Below are positions 52,172 to 61,743 of a DNA stretch of 64,000 nt, piece after piece. Position numbers and translations under genes: made by a program. The notes under the pieces were generated by a model. It did no database searches. It saw only the letters and a program-made list of their open reading frames with translations, and was not told the origin of the DNA. This stretch comes from Lysobacteraceae bacterium (GTDB lineage Bacteria; Pseudomonadota; Gammaproteobacteria; Xanthomonadales; Ahniellaceae), in assembly GCA_021299185.1 (NCBI GenBank), contig JAJTHZ010000067.1, positions 62,001-126,000 on the forward strand, read 5' to 3'. Position 1 is the stretch's first letter; every line of letters starts with the position of its first letter.

Positions 52172-52260
52172 GCCCGGGTGGCGAAATCGGTAGCCGCAGG
52201 GGACTTAAAATCCTCCGGCCCGCAAGGGCCATGCCGGTTCGAGTCCGGCCCCGGGCACCA
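52172..52260 (+). tRNA. tRNA-Leu (UAA), integration target of the 8.8-kb element
   Basis: An 89-nt class II tRNA with acceptor GCCCGGG/CCCGGGC, discriminator A and CCA. The anticodon loop CTTAAAA has anticodon TAA. A long variable arm (TCCGGCCCGCAAGGGCCA region) is present. Its 3' part from 52203 is repeated at 61041-61098, so the tRNA gene serves as the attachment site and remains intact after insertion. Confidence 0.97.
52203..52260 (+). other. attL (within tRNA-Leu 3' end)
   Basis: Left copy of the 58-bp attachment repeat. It spans the anticodon loop to the CCA of tRNA-Leu. It differs from the right copy only at 52209 (A here, G at 61047). The 51 nt from 52210 to 52260 are identical to 61048-61098, so strand exchange took place to the right of position 52209. 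Confidence 0.92.
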
Positions 52261-52321
52261 ATGTAATCAACGGGTTGCGGCGGCATTTGACCGGCCACCG
52301 CGGCGCGCGCAAACTGGCCTC

Positions 52322-52338
52322 GGGACAAGCTCGGGACA
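52322..52338 (+). promoter_or_regulatory. Putative left arm-type integrase sites (GGGACA pair)
   Basis: Two GGGACA hexamers start at 52322 and 52333, 11 nt apart, between attL and the integrase start. A matching pair with the same 11-nt spacing sits near the right end (60928, 60939). Equal spacing at both ends suggests arm-type binding sites, or operators shared with int control. Confidence 0.5.
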
Positions 52339-52348
52339 GTGACGCGGC

Positions 52349-53464
52349 ATGGCGACGATCACGCGGCGAGTAGGGCGCACGGGGCGCGTCACCTGGCAGG
52401 CGAAGGTTCGCCCGCTCGGCGAGCTGCCGCGCTCGCGCACGTTCGCCCGCAAAGCCGACGCCGACGCCTGGGCGAAGGCGATCGAAACCGACCTCGCGCG
52501 CGGGCTCGTAGTGCCCACGACCGCCGACCGGCGCCGCACGGTGTCCGACCTGATCGACGAATACCTGCGCGACGCGCTGCCGCGCACGAGCACCGCGAGG
52601 GCATACCGGCGGCAATTGGAATGGTGGCGCGCGCAGGTCGGCGCGCTGGCAATCGAGAAACTCACGCCGGCCGCAATCGCCGACGCGCGCGCGAAGCTGA
52701 TGCGGCCCGACGCCGATGGAACCAAGCGCAAGTCGGCGACCGTGAACCGCTACCTCGCCGCGCTCAGCGCCGCCTGCAAATGGGGATGGAAGGAACGCCG
52801 CTGGCTGCCGCGGAATCCCGTCCTAGACATCGCCAAGGGCCGCGAGTCGCCCGGCGTGGTCCGGTTCCTCACCGAGCCGGAGCGCGCCGCGCTGATGACC
52901 GCTGCGCGCGCCAGCGACGATCCCAACATCTACACCGCGCTGATCCTCGCACTCGCCACCGGCGCGCGTTACGCGAACGTCCGCGGTCTCACGGTCGACG
53001 ACGTGGCGATCGACCGCACGGCGCTGCGATTCACGACGACCAAGAACGGGCAGGGGCGATGGGTGCCGCTGATTCCTGCCGCGCGTGCGCAACTGGCGGC
53101 GCACCTGGAGCGACACCCGACCGGCGAGGGCTGGCTATTCCCGGGCTGGCGCAACGATTCGCCCGCAGACCTGGACAAGGCCTGGCGCAAGGTCCGCACC
53201 GCAGCCGCGAAGGTGGAGCCCACGCTCGCGACCTTCCGCTGGCACGACCTGCGCCACACGACCGCTACCTACCTCCTCGAGGCCGGAGCGAGCACGATCG
53301 AGATTGCCGCGGCACTCGGGCACAAGACGCTGGCAATGGCGCAGCGCTACGCGCACCAATCGCCCGCCTTTGCGCGCGAGACGTTCAACCGCCTGGCCGA
53401 CCGGCTAGGCGACCTACAAACCGACGCCGGCGGCACCGGCGAAGCGGCGCCGACCCGGACGTGA
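52349..53464 (+). CDS. int: Tyrosine recombinase (phage-type integrase)
   Basis: A 371-residue site-specific recombinase that would integrate and excise the element at tRNA-Leu. An N-terminal arm-binding beta region (MATITRRVGRTGRVTWQAKV) precedes a SAM-like core-binding domain (TVSDLIDEYLRD... to about 165). The catalytic domain has Arg I in ATGARYANVRGL, Lys in TTKNGQGRWVPL, the H-x-x-R box WHDLRHTTATYLLEAG, and the His/Tyr end LGHKTLAMAQRYAH. The catalytic set is complete. The acidic residue after Arg I that is usual (Glu/Asp) is Asn here. The gene sits directly next to attL and reads into the element. Confidence 0.93.
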   Translation: MATITRRVGRTGRVTWQAKVRPLGELPRSRTFARKADADAWAKAIETDLARGLVVPTTADRRRTVSDLIDEYLRDALPRTSTARAYRRQLEWWRAQVGALAIEKLTPAAIADARAKLMRPDADGTKRKSATVNRYLAALSAACKWGWKERRWLPRNPVLDIAKGRESPGVVRFLTEPERAALMTAARASDDPNIYTALILALATGARYANVRGLTVDDVAIDRTALRFTTTKNGQGRWVPLIPAARAQLAAHLERHPTGEGWLFPGWRNDSPADLDKAWRKVRTAAAKVEPTLATFRWHDLRHTTATYLLEAGASTIEIAAALGHKTLAMAQRYAHQSPAFARETFNRLADRLGDLQTDAGGTGEAAPTRT

Positions 53465-53509
53465 CCCGGGCCGGCGCCTTCCACAACCGAAACGCTGGAG
53501 GTTTCGATC

Positions 53510-53818
53510 ATGGTCAACGGGAATCGTAGCGAGTTTGAGCGCTTCATCGTCGCGGTGGCTGGCCGCACGCCCGAAGCGATGGTGGCCGAGCTGCCGGATG
53601 CCGGCGCGCGCGACCTGGCGCGGCGGCTGTGCGAGGATCGCCGCGACCTCGCCCGGCAGTCGGCCGCGCTGGCGCACGCGCTGGTGCACGCGCGTGGTGA
53701 GCTGGACGCACACGAGGTCGAGGCGATCGCCTGGTGCTTGCGGGATTTGGCGCAGCGCGCCGAGTTCTGCAACGACCTGCAGGTCCTGGTCGACAACCGC
53801 CTCGACCGGGCCGCGTGA
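53510..53818 (+). CDS. Element protein of unknown function (102 aa)
   Basis: A 102-residue, helix-rich, charged protein (MVNGNRSEFERFIVAVAGRT...). It has runs such as ARDLARRLCEDRRDLARQSA that suggest a helical bundle or coiled coil. No motif that I recognise. GGAGG lies 8 nt before the ATG at 53510, which supports translation. Its stop overlaps the GTG of the next gene. An early-region regulatory role is possible from position only. Confidence 0.7.
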   Translation: MVNGNRSEFERFIVAVAGRTPEAMVAELPDAGARDLARRLCEDRRDLARQSAALAHALVHARGELDAHEVEAIAWCLRDLAQRAEFCNDLQVLVDNRLDRAA

Positions 53819-54456
53819 AGCGGGCCAACCCGCGCTGGCGTGACGCGGTCGCGCGGCTGCGCGTGGGCATCAGCGGCTGGCGGATGCCGGTTGGCGATGC
53901 GCCATGCAGCCTAAGCGCCGAGGACCTGGAGCGCCTCGACCGGGTCCTCGACGCGATCCTGACCGCCAAGTCGGCCGAGGCCGCCGGCGCCGGCATGCTG
54001 GCCGCCGTGGGCATCCCGCGCGCGCGCAGGCCCCGCAGGTCACTTGCCAAAACGGCAAGTGACCTGCGGGGCCTGCGCGACCGCCTGTACGCCGACTTCA
54101 CTTTCAGCGACAGCTACACCGTCCCGCTGGTCGAGGTGCTGGACGCTATCGCCGCGGGCGGCACTGCACGCGCGATCGGCGAGCGCGTGCTGGCGTTGTT
54201 CGGCGCACCTGGTGGCCGTGGTCGCCGACCGTCGCGCGCCATCGCGCAACAGGATGCGTTGGCCGCTGCACAAGGCCAGTACGAGTATTGGCTCCACGTC
54301 GTCGACGACGACGAGCGCGCCTACATGGAAGTCAAGCGCCTTTACCGTGCCGGCCGCACCGTGGCCGAGATCGCCTTTGCCGTCCGCTGGCCGGTCGACC
54401 GCGTGGTCGCCGCGTTGGAACCGATCTTCGGCAAGGTCAGTAACGCGCCCACGTAA
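53815..54456 (+). CDS. Element protein with C-terminal HTH-like segment (213 aa)
   Basis: A 213-residue protein from a GTG overlapping the previous stop. The N-terminal part (residues 1-68) is helical. Residues about 70-88 are encoded by a long perfect palindrome (54023-54079). The C-terminal segment YMEVKRLYRAGRTVAEIAFA followed by VRWPVDRVVAAL looks like a sigma-region-4 or resolvase-type helix-turn-helix. I do not recognise the family. The palindrome may be an insertion that the gene has accommodated, since the reading frame continues. A DNA-binding regulator is the best guess. Confidence 0.6.
   Translation: MKRANPRWRDAVARLRVGISGWRMPVGDAPCSLSAEDLERLDRVLDAILTAKSAEAAGAGMLAAVGIPRARRPRRSLAKTASDLRGLRDRLYADFTFSDSYTVPLVEVLDAIAAGGTARAIGERVLALFGAPGGRGRRPSRAIAQQDALAAAQGQYEYWLHVVDDDERAYMEVKRLYRAGRTVAEIAFAVRWPVDRVVAALEPIFGKVSNAPT
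54023..54079. repeat. Perfect 26-bp inverted repeat inside the 213-aa gene
   Basis: Arm 54023-54048 and arm 54054-54079 are exact reverse complements (26 bp) with a 5-nt loop AAAAC. The core reads CAGGTCACTTGCC / GGCAAGTGACCTG. A perfect stem of this length inside a coding region is far beyond chance and is the strongest cruciform in the element. Confidence 0.9.
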
Positions 54457-54551
54457 TTCCGATTTTCTCCGACCTCACCCGCGCACCAAGCGGCGCGCGC
54501 TTAGCACTATTGCCCAACGTCGGCCATCCGCGGCCGGGTTGGGAGCACGGC

Positions 54552-54767
54552 ATGCAACAGCGAACCTTGAAGGACGTGGCGGGTTTTGCCGCCACGGCCG
54601 GCTTTACCGAGGCGCAGCTCCGGTGGTGGATCCACAACGCCGAAGGGAACGGCCTCGCGCGCGCTGGCGCCATCGTGCGAATCCAGCGCCGCGTTTACAT
54701 CGACGCCGATCGGTTCTGGCATTGGGTCGATTCCGGCGCGGCGGCCGGTCGCCGGAGCGCCGCATGA
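54552..54767 (+). CDS. Small HTH DNA-binding protein (excisionase/AlpA-like)
   Basis: A 71-residue protein from the ATG at 54552, which has GGGAG about 7 nt upstream. It reads TLKDVAGFAATAGFTEAQLR, then WWIHNAEGNGLARAGAIVRI and RRVYIDADRFWHWVD. This has the shape of a MerR-type winged helix: the recognition helix near TEAQLRWWIHN, a wing with a basic hairpin, then a terminal helix. Such proteins serve as excisionase (AlpA/Xis) or replication activators in P4-like islands. Which role applies here cannot be read. Confidence 0.65.
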   Translation: MQQRTLKDVAGFAATAGFTEAQLRWWIHNAEGNGLARAGAIVRIQRRVYIDADRFWHWVDSGAAAGRRSAA

Positions 54768-55009
54768 CGACCGCGAGCAGCTTGCCGGCGCTGCCGGCAA
54801 CCGCTGCCGCCCTGGCGGACCACGCGCGGCAGGCTGCGGCGCTTGCCGAGCAATTCCGCAACCAGCCGTCGCGCGAGTCGCTCGATGCGTTTCTCGCAAC
54901 CAGCCGTGGCGCAACAATGGCAGCGCTGCGCGCTGCGCGGATGCTGCGCGGCGATCCGCTGCCACCGACGCCCGGCGAGCCGCCCGCGCGCAGCCGGCGG
55001 GCCGCCTGA
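54764..55009 (+). CDS. Element protein of unknown function (81 aa)
   Basis: An 81-residue Ala-rich helical protein. Its ATG overlaps the previous stop (ATGA) and its TGA overlaps the next ATG (TGATG), so it is embedded in a tightly coupled replication operon. The N-terminal 55 residues form one or two amphipathic helices; the tail (PLPPTPGEPPARSRR) is Pro/Arg-rich and probably disordered. No family recognised. Confidence 0.65.
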   Translation: MTTASSLPALPATAAALADHARQAAALAEQFRNQPSRESLDAFLATSRGATMAALRAARMLRGDPLPPTPGEPPARSRRAA

Positions 55010-55491
55010 TGGCGCGACCGATCGACCTCGTGTTGTCGCGGCTGCCGCGCGCCAAGAAGGCCGGCGCGGGCTGGCGAGCGCCGTGCCCGAACTGCGGGCC
55101 GGACTCGAAGTCGGAAAAGCTCGCCGTCACCGAGGGCGACGATGGACGCGTGCTGCTTCACTGCTTTGCCGGCTGCGCGCCGGCTGCCGTCCTGGCTGCG
55201 GTCGGGTTGGCGGTCGCGGACCTGTTCGACCGGCCGACAGCCGCGGCCGACGCGAGCCCCGCCGAGCGGCGACTGCGCCGCGTCGAGCTGGAGCTCGCCG
55301 ACGTGCGCGCTGCTGCCGCGGCGCTCGACCTCGAAGCGGTGGTGCTCGAAGTCGCGGCCGAGCAAATCGCCGACGGCCGTCCGCTCGCCGGACCGGATCG
55401 CGAGCGCCTGACGCTCGCACATCGCCGCATCGGCGACGTGCTGCTGCGCCTGCGCGCCGCGCACGCGCGCCGGCCGAGGGCTGCCGCATGA
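55009..55491 (+). CDS. CHC2-like zinc-finger (primase zinc-ribbon) protein
   Basis: A 160-residue protein. Residues 23-55 form a primase-type zinc ribbon: CPNCG, then KSEKLAVTEGDDGRVLLHCF with AGC. This gives the C-x2-C ... H-C-x3-C pattern of DnaG/P4-alpha zinc-binding domains. The remaining 100 residues are Ala/Leu/Glu-rich and helical, without the Toprim catalytic core. It overlaps the SF3 helicase start (ATGA). In P4 alpha, primase and helicase are one chain; here the zinc finger is on a separate protein and no catalytic primase domain is visible. It may load or regulate the helicase, or help a host primase. Confidence 0.75.
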   Translation: MARPIDLVLSRLPRAKKAGAGWRAPCPNCGPDSKSEKLAVTEGDDGRVLLHCFAGCAPAAVLAAVGLAVADLFDRPTAAADASPAERRLRRVELELADVRAAAAALDLEAVVLEVAAEQIADGRPLAGPDRERLTLAHRRIGDVLLRLRAAHARRPRAAA

Positions 55492-56873
55492 CCGACGGAC
55501 CTGCCCGCGTGGTGTCATTGGCCGAGCGCGCCGAGCAACGGCAGGCGGAGGGCCTCGATGTGAAGCGGCCGCTCGATGCGGCGCGGCTGTTGCGCGAGCG
55601 GGCGAAGGTTGGCGGCTGGCACGGCATCGCCAACGTGGCGGGTGGGTTCTACGAATGGGACGGCGAGTGCTGGCGCCCGCTGCCGCAGCCCCGGCTAGAT
55701 GCGCGCATCTACGCAATGCTTGAACAGGCGGCCGCGCCGGCGCATCGTCGATCCGTCGGCGACGTAGTGCATGCGCTCGCGGCGCTGTCGTTCGTTCCTG
55801 GCGCGCCGCCGTTCTGGATGCCGGGCGCCGAAGGCCCGGACCCGCTTGACCTGGTGCCGCTGCGGAACGGGCTCTACCACCCCGCAGCGAAGAAGCTCTA
55901 TCCCCACACGCCGGCGCTGTTCAACGTCAGCGCGGCGCCGGTTTCGTTCGACCCCGACGCGACATGCCCGCGGTGGGAGCGGTTCGTGGGCGAGGCGATC
56001 CCGGACGCGGACAGCCGGCGCGCGCTGCAACAGTTCATGGGCGTGCTGGTGTGCAGCCGAACGACGAAGTATCAGCGCGCGCTCACGATGATCGGACCGC
56101 CGCGAAGCGGAAAGGGCGTGATTCAGCGCACGATCACCGCGCTTGTTGGCCGCGATGCCGTGGCCGCGCCGACGTTCGATGAACTCGGCGGCCGATTCGG
56201 CCTGAGCGGGCTGATCGGCAAAACGGTTGCCACCATCACCGACGCTCGCATTGTGCCCGGCGATCAAGGGCGCGGCGCGCTGCAGAAGTTCCTCGCACTC
56301 ACTGGCGAGGATCACGTGCAGGTCGAGATGAAGTACGGCCCGCCGCAGACCATGCGGCTGCCCGTGCGCTTGTTGATCGCAAGCAATGATGTGCCCGTGT
56401 TCCGTGACGCCAGCTCGGCGGCGACGGCGCGGCTGCTGCTGATCCGCAGTGGCGCGTCGCACGTCGGCACCGAGTCGCTAGACCTCGAGGATGAACTCGC
56501 GGCGGAATTGCCTGGCATCTTCAACTGGTGTGCCGCGGGGCTCGCGGACCTTGAGGGATGCGGGCGGTTCGTTCAGCCCGCCGACGGGCAGGCGCTGCTC
56601 GATGAGCTGCGCGATGCCAGCAGCCCGATCGGCGCATTCGTGCGCGAGCGCTGCGAGCTGCGGCCCGATGAGTGGATCGCCAAGGCTTCGATCTTCAACG
56701 CTTGGTGCGACTGGTGCCGCGAGGAAGGGCGCAACCCTGGAGAGCTTGCAGCGTTCGCCCGCGCGCTTCACGCGGCAGCGCCCGGCATTTCAGCGACCCG
56801 TGGCCGCGATGAAAACGGCAAGCGCTACCAGCGCTTCAACGGCATCCGCCTTGCGCTGGAGCCCGGCCCGTGA
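55488..56873 (+). CDS. SF3 helicase, phage/plasmid primase P4 family (DUF5906-type)
   Basis: A 461-residue replication protein. The N-terminal region (residues about 60-160) resembles the D5/P4 N-domain (LVPLRNGLYHPAAKKLYPHT with FNVSAAPVSFDPDATCPRW). The SF3 helicase core has Walker A IGPPRSGKGVIQRT at about residue 204, a Walker-B-like acidic strand near KTVATITDARI, and motif C LLIASNDVPVFRDAS with the sensor Asn. A C-terminal winged-helix region ends the protein. It probably opens the origin and unwinds DNA. An iteron array lies directly after its stop, as expected for an origin-binding helicase such as P4 alpha. Confidence 0.88.
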   Translation: MTDGPARVVSLAERAEQRQAEGLDVKRPLDAARLLRERAKVGGWHGIANVAGGFYEWDGECWRPLPQPRLDARIYAMLEQAAAPAHRRSVGDVVHALAALSFVPGAPPFWMPGAEGPDPLDLVPLRNGLYHPAAKKLYPHTPALFNVSAAPVSFDPDATCPRWERFVGEAIPDADSRRALQQFMGVLVCSRTTKYQRALTMIGPPRSGKGVIQRTITALVGRDAVAAPTFDELGGRFGLSGLIGKTVATITDARIVPGDQGRGALQKFLALTGEDHVQVEMKYGPPQTMRLPVRLLIASNDVPVFRDASSAATARLLLIRSGASHVGTESLDLEDELAAELPGIFNWCAAGLADLEGCGRFVQPADGQALLDELRDASSPIGAFVRERCELRPDEWIAKASIFNAWCDWCREEGRNPGELAAFARALHAAAPGISATRGRDENGKRYQRFNGIRLALEPGP

Positions 56874-56884
56874 CCGCCGGCCGC

Positions 56885-57142
56885 GGTCAGGGGTCGGGTC
56901 AGGGCGTGGTCAGGGGGACGCCGGCCAGAACCGCCCGTTTTCGCCTTCACGGTCAGGGTGGTCAGGGTGGTCAGGGTGGATCGGCACTACTTCCTGCGTA
57001 CCCCATGCGCCGCTTTCCGGTGGGCTCTGCTGTTTCTTTCAAGGTTTGCCATCGGACCCCTGACCACCCTGACCAGCCCGCGCCGCACAAGGGTTTGCGG
57101 GGTGTCTCGACCCCTGACCTACCCCTGACCCGACCCCTGACC
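56885..57142. other. Candidate replication origin: dyad-symmetric GGTCAGGG iterons
   Basis: Eleven copies of GGTCAGGG lie in a 387-nt gap. Six are direct, starting at 56885, 56897, 56908, 56951, 56960 and 56969. Five are inverted (CCCTGACC), starting at 57058, 57067, 57112, 57123 and 57135. The spacing is mirror-symmetric: 12, 11, then 43, 9, 9 on the left; 9, 45, 11, 12 on the right. The centre near 57013 holds a less GC-rich patch (TGTTTCTTTCAAGG). The position next to the SF3 helicase gene and the iteron symmetry fit an origin. The gap has no gene that I can support. Confidence 0.75.
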
Positions 57143-57260
57143 CGACGGGCCGGGCGGCTGCTTAGGTACTTCCTGGGCTTCGCCTGGTGCGGGTGGAACA
57201 GGCGCAGGAGCCGCGTAGGTAGCGCCCCTGCTGCGAAGGTTGCCCCGTTGAGGTTGCGCG

Positions 57261-58004
57261 ATGACACACACCCCTGAAAAACCCGACTTCGAGCCCGAGG
57301 ACGATGCGCTGTCAACCGATCGGCCGGACGGGCTGTTTCCCACCGCGCTTGACGACGTGCGACTCACGCAGGCGCAGCTCGGCGACCTGCTCGGCGTGAG
57401 CCGGCAAGCCGTCGGCAAGCAGGTGAAGCGCGGCGCCTTGCGCGTCGATCCCGATGGATTGATGCCAGCGCGTCGCGCCCTGGCTGACTGGCGCCGGAAC
57501 GTCGATCCGAGCCGCACGCGCGCACGCTTCAACGCCCGCCGCCCTAGCGCAACCGACCCGGCGCTGATCCAGCGCCTTGAGGCGATCGAGCGCCGGCTCG
57601 CCGAGGACTTGGGCGAGATGCTCGGCGACGATGGCGCGGCGCCTGGCAGCCTCGCCGCCGCGCGGGCCGACCTGGTGCGGGTGCAGCTCGAACGGGCGCG
57701 GTTCCTCGCGGAGCGCGAGCGGCGCGAATGGATTCGCGTCGCCGAGGTCGATGAAGCCCTGGCGCACTTCGCCGCCATCATGCGCGGCGCCATCATGGAT
57801 CTCCCGGGGCGCATCGCCTACGCGCTGAGCCTCGAAGGCGATGCCGCGCAGCTCGCGCACAACCTGGTGCACGAAACGACCCACGCCTGGCAGTGGGAGC
57901 TCGCCCGCGCTCTGGCGCGCCTGAACCCGAACGGCGAGCCGATCCCAGGCGATCCCCTGCACGCCTCGCCGCCGAACGGGAGCGGGGAGGGCGGCGCCGA
58001 ATGA
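57261..58004 (+). CDS. Terminase small subunit candidate (Nu1-like HTH protein)
   Basis: A 247-residue protein. Residues about 33-58 form a winged-helix DNA-binding motif (VRLTQAQLGDLLGVSRQAVG then KQVKRGALRVD) like Nu1-type small terminases and DUF1441 proteins. Residues about 95-180 are a charged coiled-coil region (LEAIERRLAEDLGEM..., VRVQLERARFLAERERREWI), which would give oligomerisation. GAGG precedes the ATG at 57261. The position directly ahead of the capsid region supports a packaging role, such as recognising the element's own DNA. A plain regulatory HTH protein is the alternative. No large terminase gene follows. Confidence 0.6.
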   Translation: MTHTPEKPDFEPEDDALSTDRPDGLFPTALDDVRLTQAQLGDLLGVSRQAVGKQVKRGALRVDPDGLMPARRALADWRRNVDPSRTRARFNARRPSATDPALIQRLEAIERRLAEDLGEMLGDDGAAPGSLAAARADLVRVQLERARFLAERERREWIRVAEVDEALAHFAAIMRGAIMDLPGRIAYALSLEGDAAQLAHNLVHETTHAWQWELARALARLNPNGEPIPGDPLHASPPNGSGEGGAE

Positions 58005-58441
58005 CCGAAGCGCGCGCCGCCGAGCTGTTGCGCTGCGCGATCGAGGGCCGCGAGCCCGAGGCCGTGGCGCGGTGGCTGGGTGGCGCACTGTCGGCGCTGC
58101 TGCGCGGCGAAGCCGACAAGCTGGGGCACGCGCTCGGGCTGCCCGGCACAGCGCTGCGCGCTGCGCTGGCGTCCGAACGCGAGCGGGCACGCGCCGTTTC
58201 GTACGGACTGCAGGACGCGGCAGCCGGCGCAGTCGCGCGCCTGGCGGATGACCTGGCCGACGGCTGCGCCGCGCTCGCGGAGCGCCACACGGCGGGCCGC
58301 CTGCGGCGTGCGGTGGCATCGGGCGCCCTGGCGTGGCTGATCAACCGCGAGGCCGCGCGCTGCGGGCTGTATGGCCTGGCGGACGCGCTCGGGAAAGTAG
58401 GTCGATCAAATGATCGACCTACTTTCGACGACGACGCATGA
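58001..58441 (+). CDS. Element protein of unknown function (146 aa)
   Basis: A 146-residue Ala/Leu/Arg-rich helical protein whose ATG overlaps the previous stop (ATGA). It begins MTEARAAELLRCAIEGREPE. Regularly spaced Leu/Ala suggest a helical bundle. No recognised domain or membrane segment. Residues near the C-terminus (KVGRSNDRPTFDDDA) are encoded by a perfect palindrome (58393-58426). A minor head or scaffolding role is possible from position only. Confidence 0.6.
   Translation: MTEARAAELLRCAIEGREPEAVARWLGGALSALLRGEADKLGHALGLPGTALRAALASERERARAVSYGLQDAAAGAVARLADDLADGCAALAERHTAGRLRRAVASGALAWLINREAARCGLYGLADALGKVGRSNDRPTFDDDA
58393..58426. repeat. Perfect 16-bp palindrome near the end of the 146-aa gene
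   Basis: GAAAGTAGGTCGATCA (58393-58408) and its exact reverse complement (58411-58426) are separated by AA. It is AT-richer than its surroundings and lies 13 nt before the gene's stop. It could be an RNA stem, a protein-binding dyad ahead of the next genes, or an inserted repeat. Confidence 0.85.
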
Positions 58442-58444
58442 CCG

Positions 58445-58918
58445 ATGCGCGCCCCGTTCGCCACCGCAGCCGATCTTGCACGGGGGGAGGGCGCCATCGA
58501 TGGCGCTGCCGCCGCGTGGATTCGGGATGGCCTGCGCGCATGGCTGGCGACGGGTGGTGCTGTCCCGCTCCATCGATGCCTGGAGCTGCCGGGCAGTATT
58601 CGCGCCGGCCGGCTGGCTCGCCGCGACGCGCTGATAGCCGAAGCCGCGGCGGAGTTGTCCGCAAGCCTTGGGCCGTACCAGCGCGCGGGCGCCCTGGCGG
58701 CCGTGATCGCTGAAAGCGGCCACCATCGCGCTGCGATGCGAAGGGGGCGCGCCGGGCAGTGGGCGCGTGGGCTGGTGATCGGCCTGCTGTTTGAAGCCGA
58801 GCAATTTGCCGAACTGCCGACTACGACGAAACAACTGCGCAACATCCTGCGCCGCACCGAAACGGAAACCGAAAGCGGCTTCGGCGATTCGCTGGCACGC
58901 TCAGAAATCCAAACATGA
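58445..58918 (+). CDS. Element protein of unknown function (157 aa)
   Basis: A 157-residue protein starting 3 nt after the previous stop. It is helical with short hydrophobic stretches (LVIGLLFEAEQFAEL) and an Arg-rich middle (HHRAAMRRGRAGQWARG). The C-terminal TTTKQLRNILRRTETETESG is polar. No recognised family. It immediately precedes the capsid gene, the slot where phages often carry a portal, protease or scaffold. It is much too short for a portal and shows no Ser protease motif. Confidence 0.6.
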   Translation: MRAPFATAADLARGEGAIDGAAAAWIRDGLRAWLATGGAVPLHRCLELPGSIRAGRLARRDALIAEAAAELSASLGPYQRAGALAAVIAESGHHRAAMRRGRAGQWARGLVIGLLFEAEQFAELPTTTKQLRNILRRTETETESGFGDSLARSEIQT

Positions 58919-58930
58919 AAGGAAACCCCA

Positions 58931-60055
58931 ATGAGCCACGCGCTCGAAATGCACTACGAACGAAAAGTACGCGAGCTGGCCGAAGTCGAGCGCGCGCTCG
59001 GCGCACGCGAAAAGGATCGGATCTCGCTCGGCAACGCGCTTGATGCCCTGCGCCATGGGAAGCCCGACCTGGCGTCGCGTGAGCGCGACTACTCCGAGTC
59101 GCTGCAATATGCACACAATCTTCCGCCGCTCGGCGCGCACTCGATGTACTTTTCGTGGCGCGGGATCGCCGCGTGCCTGGGCGATGGCATCCTGCCCCGC
59201 GGCCGCCGTGACCTCGGCACCACGCCCACGTCTGCCGGTGGCGCGCTCGTCACCACGCAGTTGCACGACGAAATCGCGGACGCGCTTCGGCCGTTTTCGG
59301 CGGCCTACCGACTGGGCGCAACTTCGGTGCCGCTGACCGGCGGGCAGGTGGGCGTGCCGCGAATCAACACCACTACCACGGGGGCGTGGCTCGGCAGCGA
59401 AACGACACCCGCACCCGAGAGCCAGCCCGTGCTCGGACAGATTGCGTTGTCGCCGAAAACCGCTGCGACCTACGTCGAATCGTCCCGGCAATTGCGCATC
59501 CAGAGCGGCCAAGCCGGCGAGCGCATGATCGCACTGGATTTGATGCGTGCGGTTGGCTCGCTCGTGGATGTGGCGGTGTTCGCTGGCTCCGGCGCGTCCG
59601 GTCAACCGTTGGGACTGGCCAACACCGCGGGCGTGACCGCGATTTCCGGCGGCACGCTGAATCGCGGGGGGTTGCTCGAACTTCAGCGCCGCGTGGCCGC
59701 TGCGAACGGGATCACCAACGCGGCGACCATCGGCTACGCGACCACGCCGCAGGTTGCCGAAATACTGGCCAACCGCGCTGTTGTCGCCAGTTCGGACGTG
59801 AGCGCTTGGCAAGGCAACCTCGCCGAGGGCACCGCAGCCGGTGCGCTGGCTGTCACCAGCACCGGCGTGCCGGCGGGCGTGGTTGCATTCGGCGATTGGA
59901 GCCAGTGCCTAGTCGCATCCTGGGGCGTTTTGCGAATCGAAGTGAATCCGACCGCGAATTTCCCGGCCGGGGTCGTCGGCTATCGCGCGTTTCTGGATGC
60001 CGATGTCGGCTTCCGGCAGACCGGCAGTTTTTGCCTCGCGACGGCGACGACGTAA
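58931..60055 (+). CDS. HK97-fold phage major capsid protein
   Basis: A 374-residue capsid protein. Residues about 1-90 are charged and helical, the delta/scaffold region of HK97-type capsids. The fold starts near LGTTPTSAGGALVTTQLHDE. The P-domain and E-loop region follow (AAYRLGATSVPLTGGQVGVP with TGAWLGSETTPAPESQPVLG), then LSPKTAATYVESSRQLRIQS and the SLVDVAVFAGSGASGQPLGL segment diagnostic of the family. The end GYRAFLDADVGFRQTGSFCL is the usual C-terminal strand. AAAGGAAA precedes the ATG. No protease gene is nearby, so maturation would need a helper enzyme or not occur. Confidence 0.88.
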   Translation: MSHALEMHYERKVRELAEVERALGAREKDRISLGNALDALRHGKPDLASRERDYSESLQYAHNLPPLGAHSMYFSWRGIAACLGDGILPRGRRDLGTTPTSAGGALVTTQLHDEIADALRPFSAAYRLGATSVPLTGGQVGVPRINTTTTGAWLGSETTPAPESQPVLGQIALSPKTAATYVESSRQLRIQSGQAGERMIALDLMRAVGSLVDVAVFAGSGASGQPLGLANTAGVTAISGGTLNRGGLLELQRRVAAANGITNAATIGYATTPQVAEILANRAVVASSDVSAWQGNLAEGTAAGALAVTSTGVPAGVVAFGDWSQCLVASWGVLRIEVNPTANFPAGVVGYRAFLDADVGFRQTGSFCLATATT

Positions 60056-60363
60056 TGGCACCGGCAACGGTTCTGATCCGCGCGCGGCGCGCGCTGCATA
60101 CTGACGGCCGAACCGTCGCGCCTGGCGATGTGGCGCGGATGCCGGTCGAGAGCGCGCTCGCAGGCATCGCCTGCGGGCAACTCGAAATCATCGGCCCCGA
60201 GGCGGTCGGCGTCATCGTGCGGCCATGCTTGATCGGCGACAACCACGCGCCGCGGTGGCGATTGGTCTACTGTCGCCGGCTGCTGGCGCGGCTTGTGCGC
60301 CTTGACCTGGCGCGCGCATTCGCAACCCCTCGCCGCCGTTCCGCGAGGGCGGCCCGCGCCTAG
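60055..60363 (+). CDS. Small element protein downstream of the capsid gene (102 aa)
   Basis: A 102-residue protein whose ATG overlaps the capsid stop (TAATG). Residues 1-55 (VLIRARRALHTDGRTVAPGD, then VARMPVESALAGIACGQLEI) form a beta-rich unit that resembles small phage proteins encoded after capsid genes. The rest is Arg-rich (RRLLARLVRLDLARAF...) and basic to the end. A decoration or head-completion role is possible. The basic tail may instead be read-through of a degraded end. Confidence 0.55.
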   Translation: MAPATVLIRARRALHTDGRTVAPGDVARMPVESALAGIACGQLEIIGPEAVGVIVRPCLIGDNHAPRWRLVYCRRLLARLVRLDLARAFATPRRRSARAARA

Positions 60364-60419
60364 GCGTAACGCGCGGCCGCGCGCGCGGCACCAATAGGAC
60401 CTCCCCGGCCGCGCCGGGT

Positions 60420-60868
60420 TGCACCCCGCCGCTCACGGGGTGCATGCAGCGCGGGGCGTGGCCGGCACGCTGTTGATAGTCCGGAGCGTGAGCCGCGGCG
60501 TGGAAATCAGCGGCGAGCGGCGGCCCGCCGATCCTGGCAATGGGATCGGCGGGCCGGCGGGTTGATCCGTTATTCGGCGAGGCATCGAGCCCGCCGCCGA
60601 ATCCCGTGTAAGCGGTTTCCTACACGCCCCCTAGCGCTTGCCCTACACGCTGACGCTGACGCTGCGCTCGCCGCTGGCTTCCTGGGAGGCGCGGCGGCAC
60701 GATGGTGTCGCACGATTCGACACCTTCGCTCCGCGAGGGATGCCGAACACCACGCGCCGGACATCAAAGTCGCACGATGCGACTTTGAAGCTGTCCGACC
60801 TGGGGAGTTGTCCCCGATCGGCAAGCGTGGAAAACGTCGAAAGATGCGACGTTTTCCACGCTTGCCGA
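60420..60868 (+). ncRNA. Stem-loop array at the right end of the element (possible RNA or binding sites)
   Basis: Five perfect hairpins: 60420-60444 (9-bp stem, 7-nt loop), 60521-60556 (14 bp, 8 nt), 60704-60724 (7 bp, 7 nt), 60764-60788 (9 bp, 7 nt) and 60818-60868 (22 bp, 7 nt). The last three share the core GTCG-loop-CGAC with loops CACGATT, CACGATG and AAAGATG. A repeated stem end and loop with changing outer stems suggests compensatory evolution of structured RNA or of dyad sites. Whether it is transcribed is unknown. No U-tract follows any stem. Confidence 0.45.
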
Positions 60869-60927
60869 CATGGGGCTGAGCGCGGTGACCGCGGCACCTC
60901 GCCGGGCACGAGACGGGCAGGGCGCTT

Positions 60928-60963
60928 GGGACAAATTTGGGACAGTGAACCCGCCTCGGGACA
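60928..60963 (+). promoter_or_regulatory. Putative right arm-type integrase sites (GGGACA triplet)
   Basis: GGGACA starts at 60928, 60939 and 60958. The first two have the same 11-nt spacing as the left-end pair (52322, 52333), and the surroundings also match (GGGACA, four nt, then the second GGGACAGTGA). They lie about 80-110 nt inside the right att. Confidence 0.5.
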
Positions 60964-61040
60964 GCAACAGCCAACAACCGGCGCACTCTACGCCATTGAA
61001 TACATTGGCTATCAACACCCCGCAATAACTGCCTAGCCCA

Positions 61041-61098
61041 ACTTAAGATCCTCCGGCCCGCAAGGGCCATGCCGGTTCGAGTCCGGCCCCGGGCACCA
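61041..61098 (+). other. attR (tRNA-Leu 3' fragment copy)
   Basis: Right copy of the attachment repeat. It lacks the 5' half of the tRNA and so is not a gene. It carries G at 61047 where the intact tRNA has A at position 37. That fits the left part of attR being element-derived (attP) and the right part being the displaced original tRNA 3' end. Confidence 0.92.
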
Positions 61099-61237
61099 TG
61101 ATTCGCGCGGCATCACCGCGAGCCGCACCGGCCGGAACCATGCAACGCGCTGATGCGCGTGATTTTTCCGGTAGATTATTGCGTGACGCCAGCCGACTTG
61201 CGACGGTTGCCGTCCCGCATCGACGGAGACCTTCACC

Positions 61238-61297
61238 ATGGTCCTGCACGCCCGCGGTGGCGCGCATCGCACGTCCGGCACGAGCGCGCCGCCATGA
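61238..61297 (+). CDS. Possible 19-residue leader peptide
   Basis: A short frame, MVLHARGGAHRTSGTSAPP, starts at an ATG with GGAGA about 7 nt upstream. Its TGA overlaps the ATG of the next gene (ATGA at 61294). The next gene has no ribosome site of its own, so translation may be coupled through this leader. It could also be a chance frame. Confidence 0.35.
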   Translation: MVLHARGGAHRTSGTSAPP

Positions 61298-61743
61298 GTC
61301 GCCCCTCCGCACGCCGCAAGGCCACCGCAAAGCCGGCATCGACGTGGAAGACCCGCGTGGCGAAGGCCAAGGCCGCCCACGTGGTGGTCACCGAGTCCGA
61401 TTTCGCCGGCATTCGCGCCGGCAGCCGCCTGCTGATCGCGAGTCCGGACATCCTGGTGCGCTACCTGATGCAGATTCCGTCCGGTGAGACCCGCACCATC
61501 CAGCGCCTGCGCAACGAACTGGCACGCCGGCACCGCGCCGACGCGACCTGTCCGGTCACCACCGCGATCTACCTGCGCGCGGTCGCCGAGGCCGGGTGGG
61601 AGGACCTTGCAGGCGGCGCCGACCGCGATGCGGTCCCGCCGTTCTGGCGCGTGATCGAGCCCGGCAGCCCGATCGCCAAGCGACTGTCCTGCGGCAATGC
61701 CGTGCTGGAACGCGAGCGCGCGTTCGAGCGCGACGGCACATGA
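61294..61743 (+). CDS. MGMT-family-like (alkyltransferase winged-helix) protein
   Basis: A 149-residue protein. The N-terminus is basic (RPSARRKATAKPASTWKTRV). The core, MQIPSGETRTIQRLRNELAR then CPVTTAIYLRAVAEAGWED and PPFWRVIEPGSPIAKRL, matches a family I recall as annotated 'MGMT family'. That family has the winged-helix fold of O6-alkylguanine alkyltransferases but not the P-C-H-R active site; no such motif is present here. It might bind DNA or alkylated bases without repair chemistry. An ATG at 61153 would add 47 residues that do not fit the family. It is the first chromosomal gene after the element. Confidence 0.5.
   Translation: MSRPSARRKATAKPASTWKTRVAKAKAAHVVVTESDFAGIRAGSRLLIASPDILVRYLMQIPSGETRTIQRLRNELARRHRADATCPVTTAIYLRAVAEAGWEDLAGGADRDAVPPFWRVIEPGSPIAKRLSCGNAVLERERAFERDGT

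Follow-up and report, generated by a model that had tools for sequence, protein, structure and literature searches.

What could three neighbouring stem-loops that share one tip and differ in their outer stems be doing at the right end of an integrated element? We addressed this question in a window of 64,000 nucleotides, by which we mean the whole stretch of bacterial DNA that was analysed. The stem-loop array covers 191 nt (60690–60880) and lies directly to the left of the probable integrase arm-type repeats and the attR site of an 8.8-kb integrated element. The array, its three hairpins and the two separate hairpins described below (60420–60444 and 60521–60556) are all annotated without a strand.

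The nature of the element, which spans 52261–61098, frames the question. Its attL site (52210–52260, + strand) is the 3′ end of a tRNA-Leu (52172–52260), and attR (61048–61098, + strand) is a 51-bp direct repeat of that end. All genes of the element lie on the + strand: a tyrosine integrase (52349–53464) is followed by small ORFs, a P4-family primase/helicase (55485–56873; D5_N, DUF5906, TIGR01613), a small terminase subunit (phrog_57; 57261–58004) and an HK97-type major capsid protein (58931–60055). No large terminase or tail gene was recognised in a scan of ten ORFs, and ORF 54510–54767, in which an AlpA/MerR regulator was sought, had no Pfam, PHROG or NCBIfam match. Directly 3′ of the primase sits an origin of PICI type (56885–57142, + strand), in which six direct copies of GGTCAGGG and five inverted copies of CCCTGACC enclose a 78-bp spacer of 57.7% GC, lower than the approximately 70% (70.1%) of the element. 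A study of PICIs, in its accessible part, locates the origin downstream (3′) of the replication gene and describes an AT-rich stretch flanked by two iteron sets (PMC6092414). The element here likewise has two iteron sets flanking a more AT-rich stretch directly after its replication gene, and, as for PICI attachment, a 51-bp att repeat of tRNA-Leu with the integrase at one end. Given this gene content and origin layout, the element is, as far as its sequence indicates, best described as a PICI-like satellite carrying a capsid gene. Between the array and attR are direct repeats of TTGGGACA / CGGGACA (60925–60963, + strand), and the same repeat type occurs at the left end (52319–52342; 74% over 38 nt). 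The GGGACA direct repeats near both ends probably serve as integrase arm sites. A GGGGACA pair also stands between the tRNA and the integrase start in G036, whose integrase is the most similar one found (35% identical).

Within the array, hairpin 1 (60694–60734) has 17-nt arms, 14/17 paired on the + strand (82% complementary, 3 mismatches), around the apex GTCG-CACGATT-CGAC at 60707–60721; its perfect core is GGTGTCG[CACGATT]CGACACC at 60704–60724, and its A.C mismatch on the + strand reads as a G.U pair on the − strand. Hairpin 2 (60758–60797) consists of an outer helix CGGACA/TGTCCG, a 3-nt bulge and an inner helix of 9–11 bp, with the apex GTCG-CACGATG-CGAC at 60769–60783; its core at 60764–60788, TCAAAGTCG[CACGATG]CGACTTTGA, has an alternative pairing of 11 bp with a 3-nt loop. 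Hairpin 3 (60818–60868) is a perfect 22-bp stem with the loop AAAGATG and the apex GTCG-AAAGATG-CGAC at 60836–60850. The apex common to all three has a 7-nt loop closed by four pairs and can be written GTCG-NNNGATK-CGAC, and successive apices are spaced 62 and 67 nt apart. The long stems contain almost no G.U pairs. Within the whole window, the + strand has GTCGMAMGAT at three sites, all of them in the element. The initial annotation had listed three hairpins (60704, 60764 and 60818) with the same inner four base pairs, 7-nt GATK loops and different outer stems, the largest of 22 bp without mismatch. Each of these was located as described, and the stems of hairpins 1 and 2 extend beyond the cores it gave. 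It had also grouped with them a fourth hairpin at 60420. This one (60420–60444) does have a 7-nt loop, CCGCTCA, on a 9-bp stem, but it stands outside the family: its stem is not closed by GTCG/CGAC pairs and its loop is not of the GATK type.

How readily would chance produce such an arrangement? When the three copies are aligned, the four inner pairs are invariant and 5/5 of the outer pairs counted are altered on both sides. Paired cells reach 96.3% in this alignment, against 33–50% with the partner slid; the rows are paralogues in one element, and as there are just three of them, the shuffle statistics are a guide only. Because no homologue was found, covariation is limited to these three paralogues, and it does not separate selection from arm-copying mutation. 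Compared with a DNA operator, in which half-sites keep a fixed spacing, the apex dyad is conserved, yet the flanks pair as well. None of 1,000 Markov sequences of 577 nt contained a perfect arm of at least 14, and none contained three hairpins with 7-nt loops and the same inner 4 bp. Over 60 Markov sequences of 50 kb, the best same-apex cluster had one member (58 runs) or two (2 runs), never three; the largest in 387 kb of host sequence had two. We also scanned 1,494,704 bases (~1.49 Mb), comprising the window and the collected loci, minus 15 loci overlapping the window, and including the 387 kb of host sequence. With a fixed criterion (perfect stems of at least 7, loops of 4–10, at least three hairpins within 300 nt, equal loop length, identical inner 4 bp and three distinct outer triplets), the array was the sole match. 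Folded as RNA, the 191 nt give −109.4 kcal/mol on the + strand and −112 on the − strand (z about −9.7 each against shuffles); folded as DNA, the z values over the two strands are −10.96 and −10.92. As both strands fold equally well, folding does not favour RNA over DNA.

The array does not appear to encode protein. A coding reading through the 132-aa ORF 60638–61036 and four other ORFs over the array was rejected on flat codon-position GC, no family and no convincing homologue: third-position GC is 0.59–0.73 in these ORFs compared with 0.78–0.87 in the integrase, primase, terminase and capsid genes, of which the first three have 0.82–0.87. The 132-aa ORF has no Pfam match, and tblastn found nothing convincing for it in phages or for its last 77 codons in plasmids. 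Against 299 genomes of the order the whole ORF gave weak matches, as did its last 77 codons against 369 genomes of the class. The best match outside the own genome had an E value of 6.6e-5, and the hairpins were absent at the 10 loci inspected among the 29 non-own ORF-match loci of the 299-genome search. On the low third-position GC and these ORFs without family or homologue, we take the array as non-coding. Phage leader peptides of the Icd/Ash type have a similar hairpin-coded motif. Such a reading was likewise discarded, as a search with the hairpin-3 stem gave three viral loci without related context and, among 369 genomes, the own genome alone; the P4 immunity region contains neither such a leader peptide nor such a hairpin.

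Ordinary terminators, or RNA-stabilising hairpins closing the late operon, are an improbable account. The hairpins do come after the last gene, a separate 14-bp GC-rich hairpin at 60521–60556 is a possible U-less terminator, and U-tracts are often missing in G+C-rich genomes. However, no T-run follows any hairpin of the array, termination needs no shared apex, and three more hairpins lie beyond the first. The only terminator-like sites in 60000–61300 are at 61145–61161, outside the element. The absence of a T-run behind the stems thus bears out the earlier suggestion that the feature is structured, or a set of repeated dyads, and not a run of terminators. A scan of 60000–61300 for sigma-70-type sites found no promoter-like site. 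N4-type hairpin promoters, which have a 3-nt loop, were rejected because hairpins 1 and 3 are unable to form one.

At the Rfam gathering score, only four tRNAs were found in the window and nothing at the array; the best sub-threshold matches, a microRNA and rox1, are weak and unrelated. This bears on the idea, raised with the first description, of an antisense immunity RNA like P4 CI RNA. The satellite context and the structured stretch would suit such an RNA, but the longest complements of the apex elsewhere in the element are 9–10 nt, the same as in shuffled sequence, there is no Rfam match at the gathering score, and no element gene lies downstream of the array in the integrated state. The idea found no support in these comparisons, and we regard it as very improbable.

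Homology searches left the array without relatives. Queries with the integrase, primase, capsid gene and array covered viral contigs, phages, plasmids, E. coli and the genomes of the order and class, and genome contigs were searched by pattern; no homologue of the array emerged from these collections. In blastn, the array matched nothing in E. coli genomes and gave short matches with E values of at least 2 in phages and at least 0.2 in plasmids. In 74 of 299 genomes the region had short matches, many of which hit a GACGCTG repeat; the arm-site phrase was present at three matched loci, two of which were read and both proved to be chance. A two-copy motif pattern retrieved 3 viral and 42 genome stretches, and among the copies listed per locus (up to six) there was no set of different paired outer stems. 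One locus alone (L101) had, among the copies listed, two with at least three outer pairs, and its outer stems are identical. Relatives of the primase (33–41% identical) were present in 5 of 298 other genomes of the order, with one at 38% in a viral contig at the cut-off used. One of these relatives belongs to an element at tRNA-Val in G236, which has integrase, primase and capsid in common with ours, and at its right end only a GC-rich terminator-like hairpin. The same-apex cluster is also absent from six distantly related satellites (L056, L178, L188, L189, L190 and L191). With no homologous right end found, the array is at present an orphan. A dispersed host repeat was considered and rejected, since the own genome contains no second copy of the region and the other motif matches there lack the outer stem (5/6 read). 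A literature search, from which subscription papers were largely out of reach, found no description of such an array.

Could the array be a by-product of mutation? An ancestral stem-loop may have been duplicated and its arms kept complementary by replication template switching, with no present function. Perfect hairpins are rich across the whole element: five with arms of at least 11 lie in its 8.8 kb (54023–54079, 58393–58426 and those at 60521, 60764 and 60818), compared with 25 across 387 kb of the host (Poisson p ~3e-4), and four with arms of at least 14, against seven (Poisson p 2e-5). Two of them fall in coding sequence. The perfect 26-bp palindrome at 54023–54079, with a 5-nt loop, is inside the open frame 53884–54456, and no further full copy of it was found in its own genome. 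By eye, the protein of that frame has two similar halves, with the palindrome in the first only. The perfect 15-bp palindrome at 58393–58426, with a 4-nt loop, overlaps the last codons of an ORF ending at 58441 and includes GTCG...CGAC within its stem. In the accessible parts of the sources, template switching is said to be capable of generating a perfect stem in a single event and of re-establishing pairing (PMC8794818), and perfect inverted repeats are described inside working genes of nematomorph mitochondria (PMC6649704). In part, the palindrome excess speaks for a process that generates or mends palindromes, template switching being one example. However, no such excess is seen in the six distant satellites, where ~68 kb (element bounds set by eye) contain 5 hairpins with arms of at least 11, and mutation alone leaves the same apex and 7-nt loop in three copies with differing outer stems unexplained. 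We therefore rate a purely mutational origin as rather unlikely.

Further palindromes were seen in the G241 satellite and in the host. The satellite of G241 has three hairpins (ACGTCGCA-TG-TGCGACGT, a 13-bp stem and a 10-bp stem) at L191 7842–8233, just upstream of an ORF that is AlpA-like by eye. A likeness between 58393–58426 and a hairpin of that satellite (L191:8157-8187) looked strong in a single-pair test; with all 5 x 33 pairs counted, shuffles equalled it in 91/500, and it is not significant. In the host, L163 9724–9793 and L170 18915–18984 are perfect 30-bp hairpins that have the same arms but differ in their 10-nt loops, which we take to be probably a REP-like dispersed repeat of Xanthomonadales.

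We favour, with a probability of roughly 0.38, the reading that the three paralogous stem-loops act as folded nucleic acid, most likely RNA, which offers the apex to a protein and leaves the outer stem free to vary as long as it is paired. An apex kept on stems that are rewritten but still paired would be expected if a protein reads the tip of a folded strand. Support comes from the rewritten, paired stems with the same apex, the uniqueness of the cluster, the strong folding, the non-coding GC, the position at attR and the arm repeats, and the lack of T-runs. Against it stand the covariation among paralogues only, the lack of a sigma-70-type promoter-like site in 60000–61300, the few G.U pairs and the similar folding of the two strands.

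An RNA-level mechanism is preferred because of where the array lies in the two states of the element. In the integrated state it closes the late (capsid) operon, ahead of attR; in the excised circle the late operon would be followed by the array, then attP, then int, which places the array upstream of int. A run-off transcript of the late operon could then carry the three stem-loops ahead of int, and a protein bound to the apex, or processing at the stems, might block int expression from the late transcript while packaging is under way. Alternatively, the array RNA might titrate the apex-binding protein. Here we infer transcription of the array, a protein that reads the apex, the identity of that protein and the effect on int. 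Such insulation of int does not apply to the gene-internal or gene-end perfect hairpins at 54023–54079 and 58393–58426.

The structure may instead work as DNA. Single-stranded or extruded (cruciform) DNA could serve as a cis site for replication or for site-specific recombination by attP, bound by the primase, the integrase or an HTH protein. The element encodes its own primase, perfect palindromes are alike on both strands, the G4 origin likewise folds into three hairpins within ~100 nt, and P4 crr is annotated ~200 bp from the attP core, comparable to the position of the array. Yet a separate iteron origin is already present right after the primase, and the array lacks the GGTCAGGG iteron, whereas P4 crr shares its iterons with ori according to the annotation. 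We consider a DNA site doubtful, though a serious alternative. We consider it improbable that the array is a cos/pac-like packaging signal to which the small terminase binds. Lambda cosB has its recognition sites in repeats, and the element here encodes a phrog_57 small terminase and has a 15-bp motif three times. However, terminases act on double-stranded DNA, and recognition of double-stranded DNA leaves divergent yet paired outer stems unexplained; the array is also not adjacent to terS.

Taken together, the original observation is confirmed and its interpretation partly supported. With this array the satellite has a clearly defined structure that is at present an orphan. Structured RNAs and single-stranded sites remain, to our knowledge, little charted in phage satellites. 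A family in which one apex sits on freely varying stems offers direct access to the protein that reads the apex, and its position by attP permits a simple test of whether satellites separate late expression from integration by folded nucleic acid. Tentatively, and we do not think it likely, the array may represent a new class of apex-recognised stem-loop arrays in capsid-carrying satellites, RNA or single-stranded DNA, read by a protein of the element or of the helper, in an element that also retains perfect palindromes within genes and would thus use one-strand structure throughout its life cycle.

The array has points in common with several known systems. P4 CI RNA and P1 C4 RNA are likewise structured stretches in a satellite or phage, and they act by antisense complementarity. 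In contrast, no antisense complementarity above the shuffle level was found for the array, and it has no Rfam match at the gathering score. P4 crr also lies near attP, at ~200 bp from its core, and the satellite around it likewise encodes a P4-type primase; it differs from the array in that P4 crr has origin iterons in 120-bp direct repeats, whereas the array has three hairpins, and neither GGTCAGGG nor CCCTGACC is present in 60690–60880. The complementary-strand origin of phage G4 has three neighbouring stem-loops, as the array does when shape only is compared, although G4 is a different kind of phage and its stems are shorter. For PICIs, no right-end hairpin array is met in the accessible part of PMC6092414, and the element here further differs from Gram-negative PICIs in carrying an HK97 capsid gene. 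It nonetheless shares with them an integrase at the left end, a primase followed by an origin with two iteron sets, and a small terminase.
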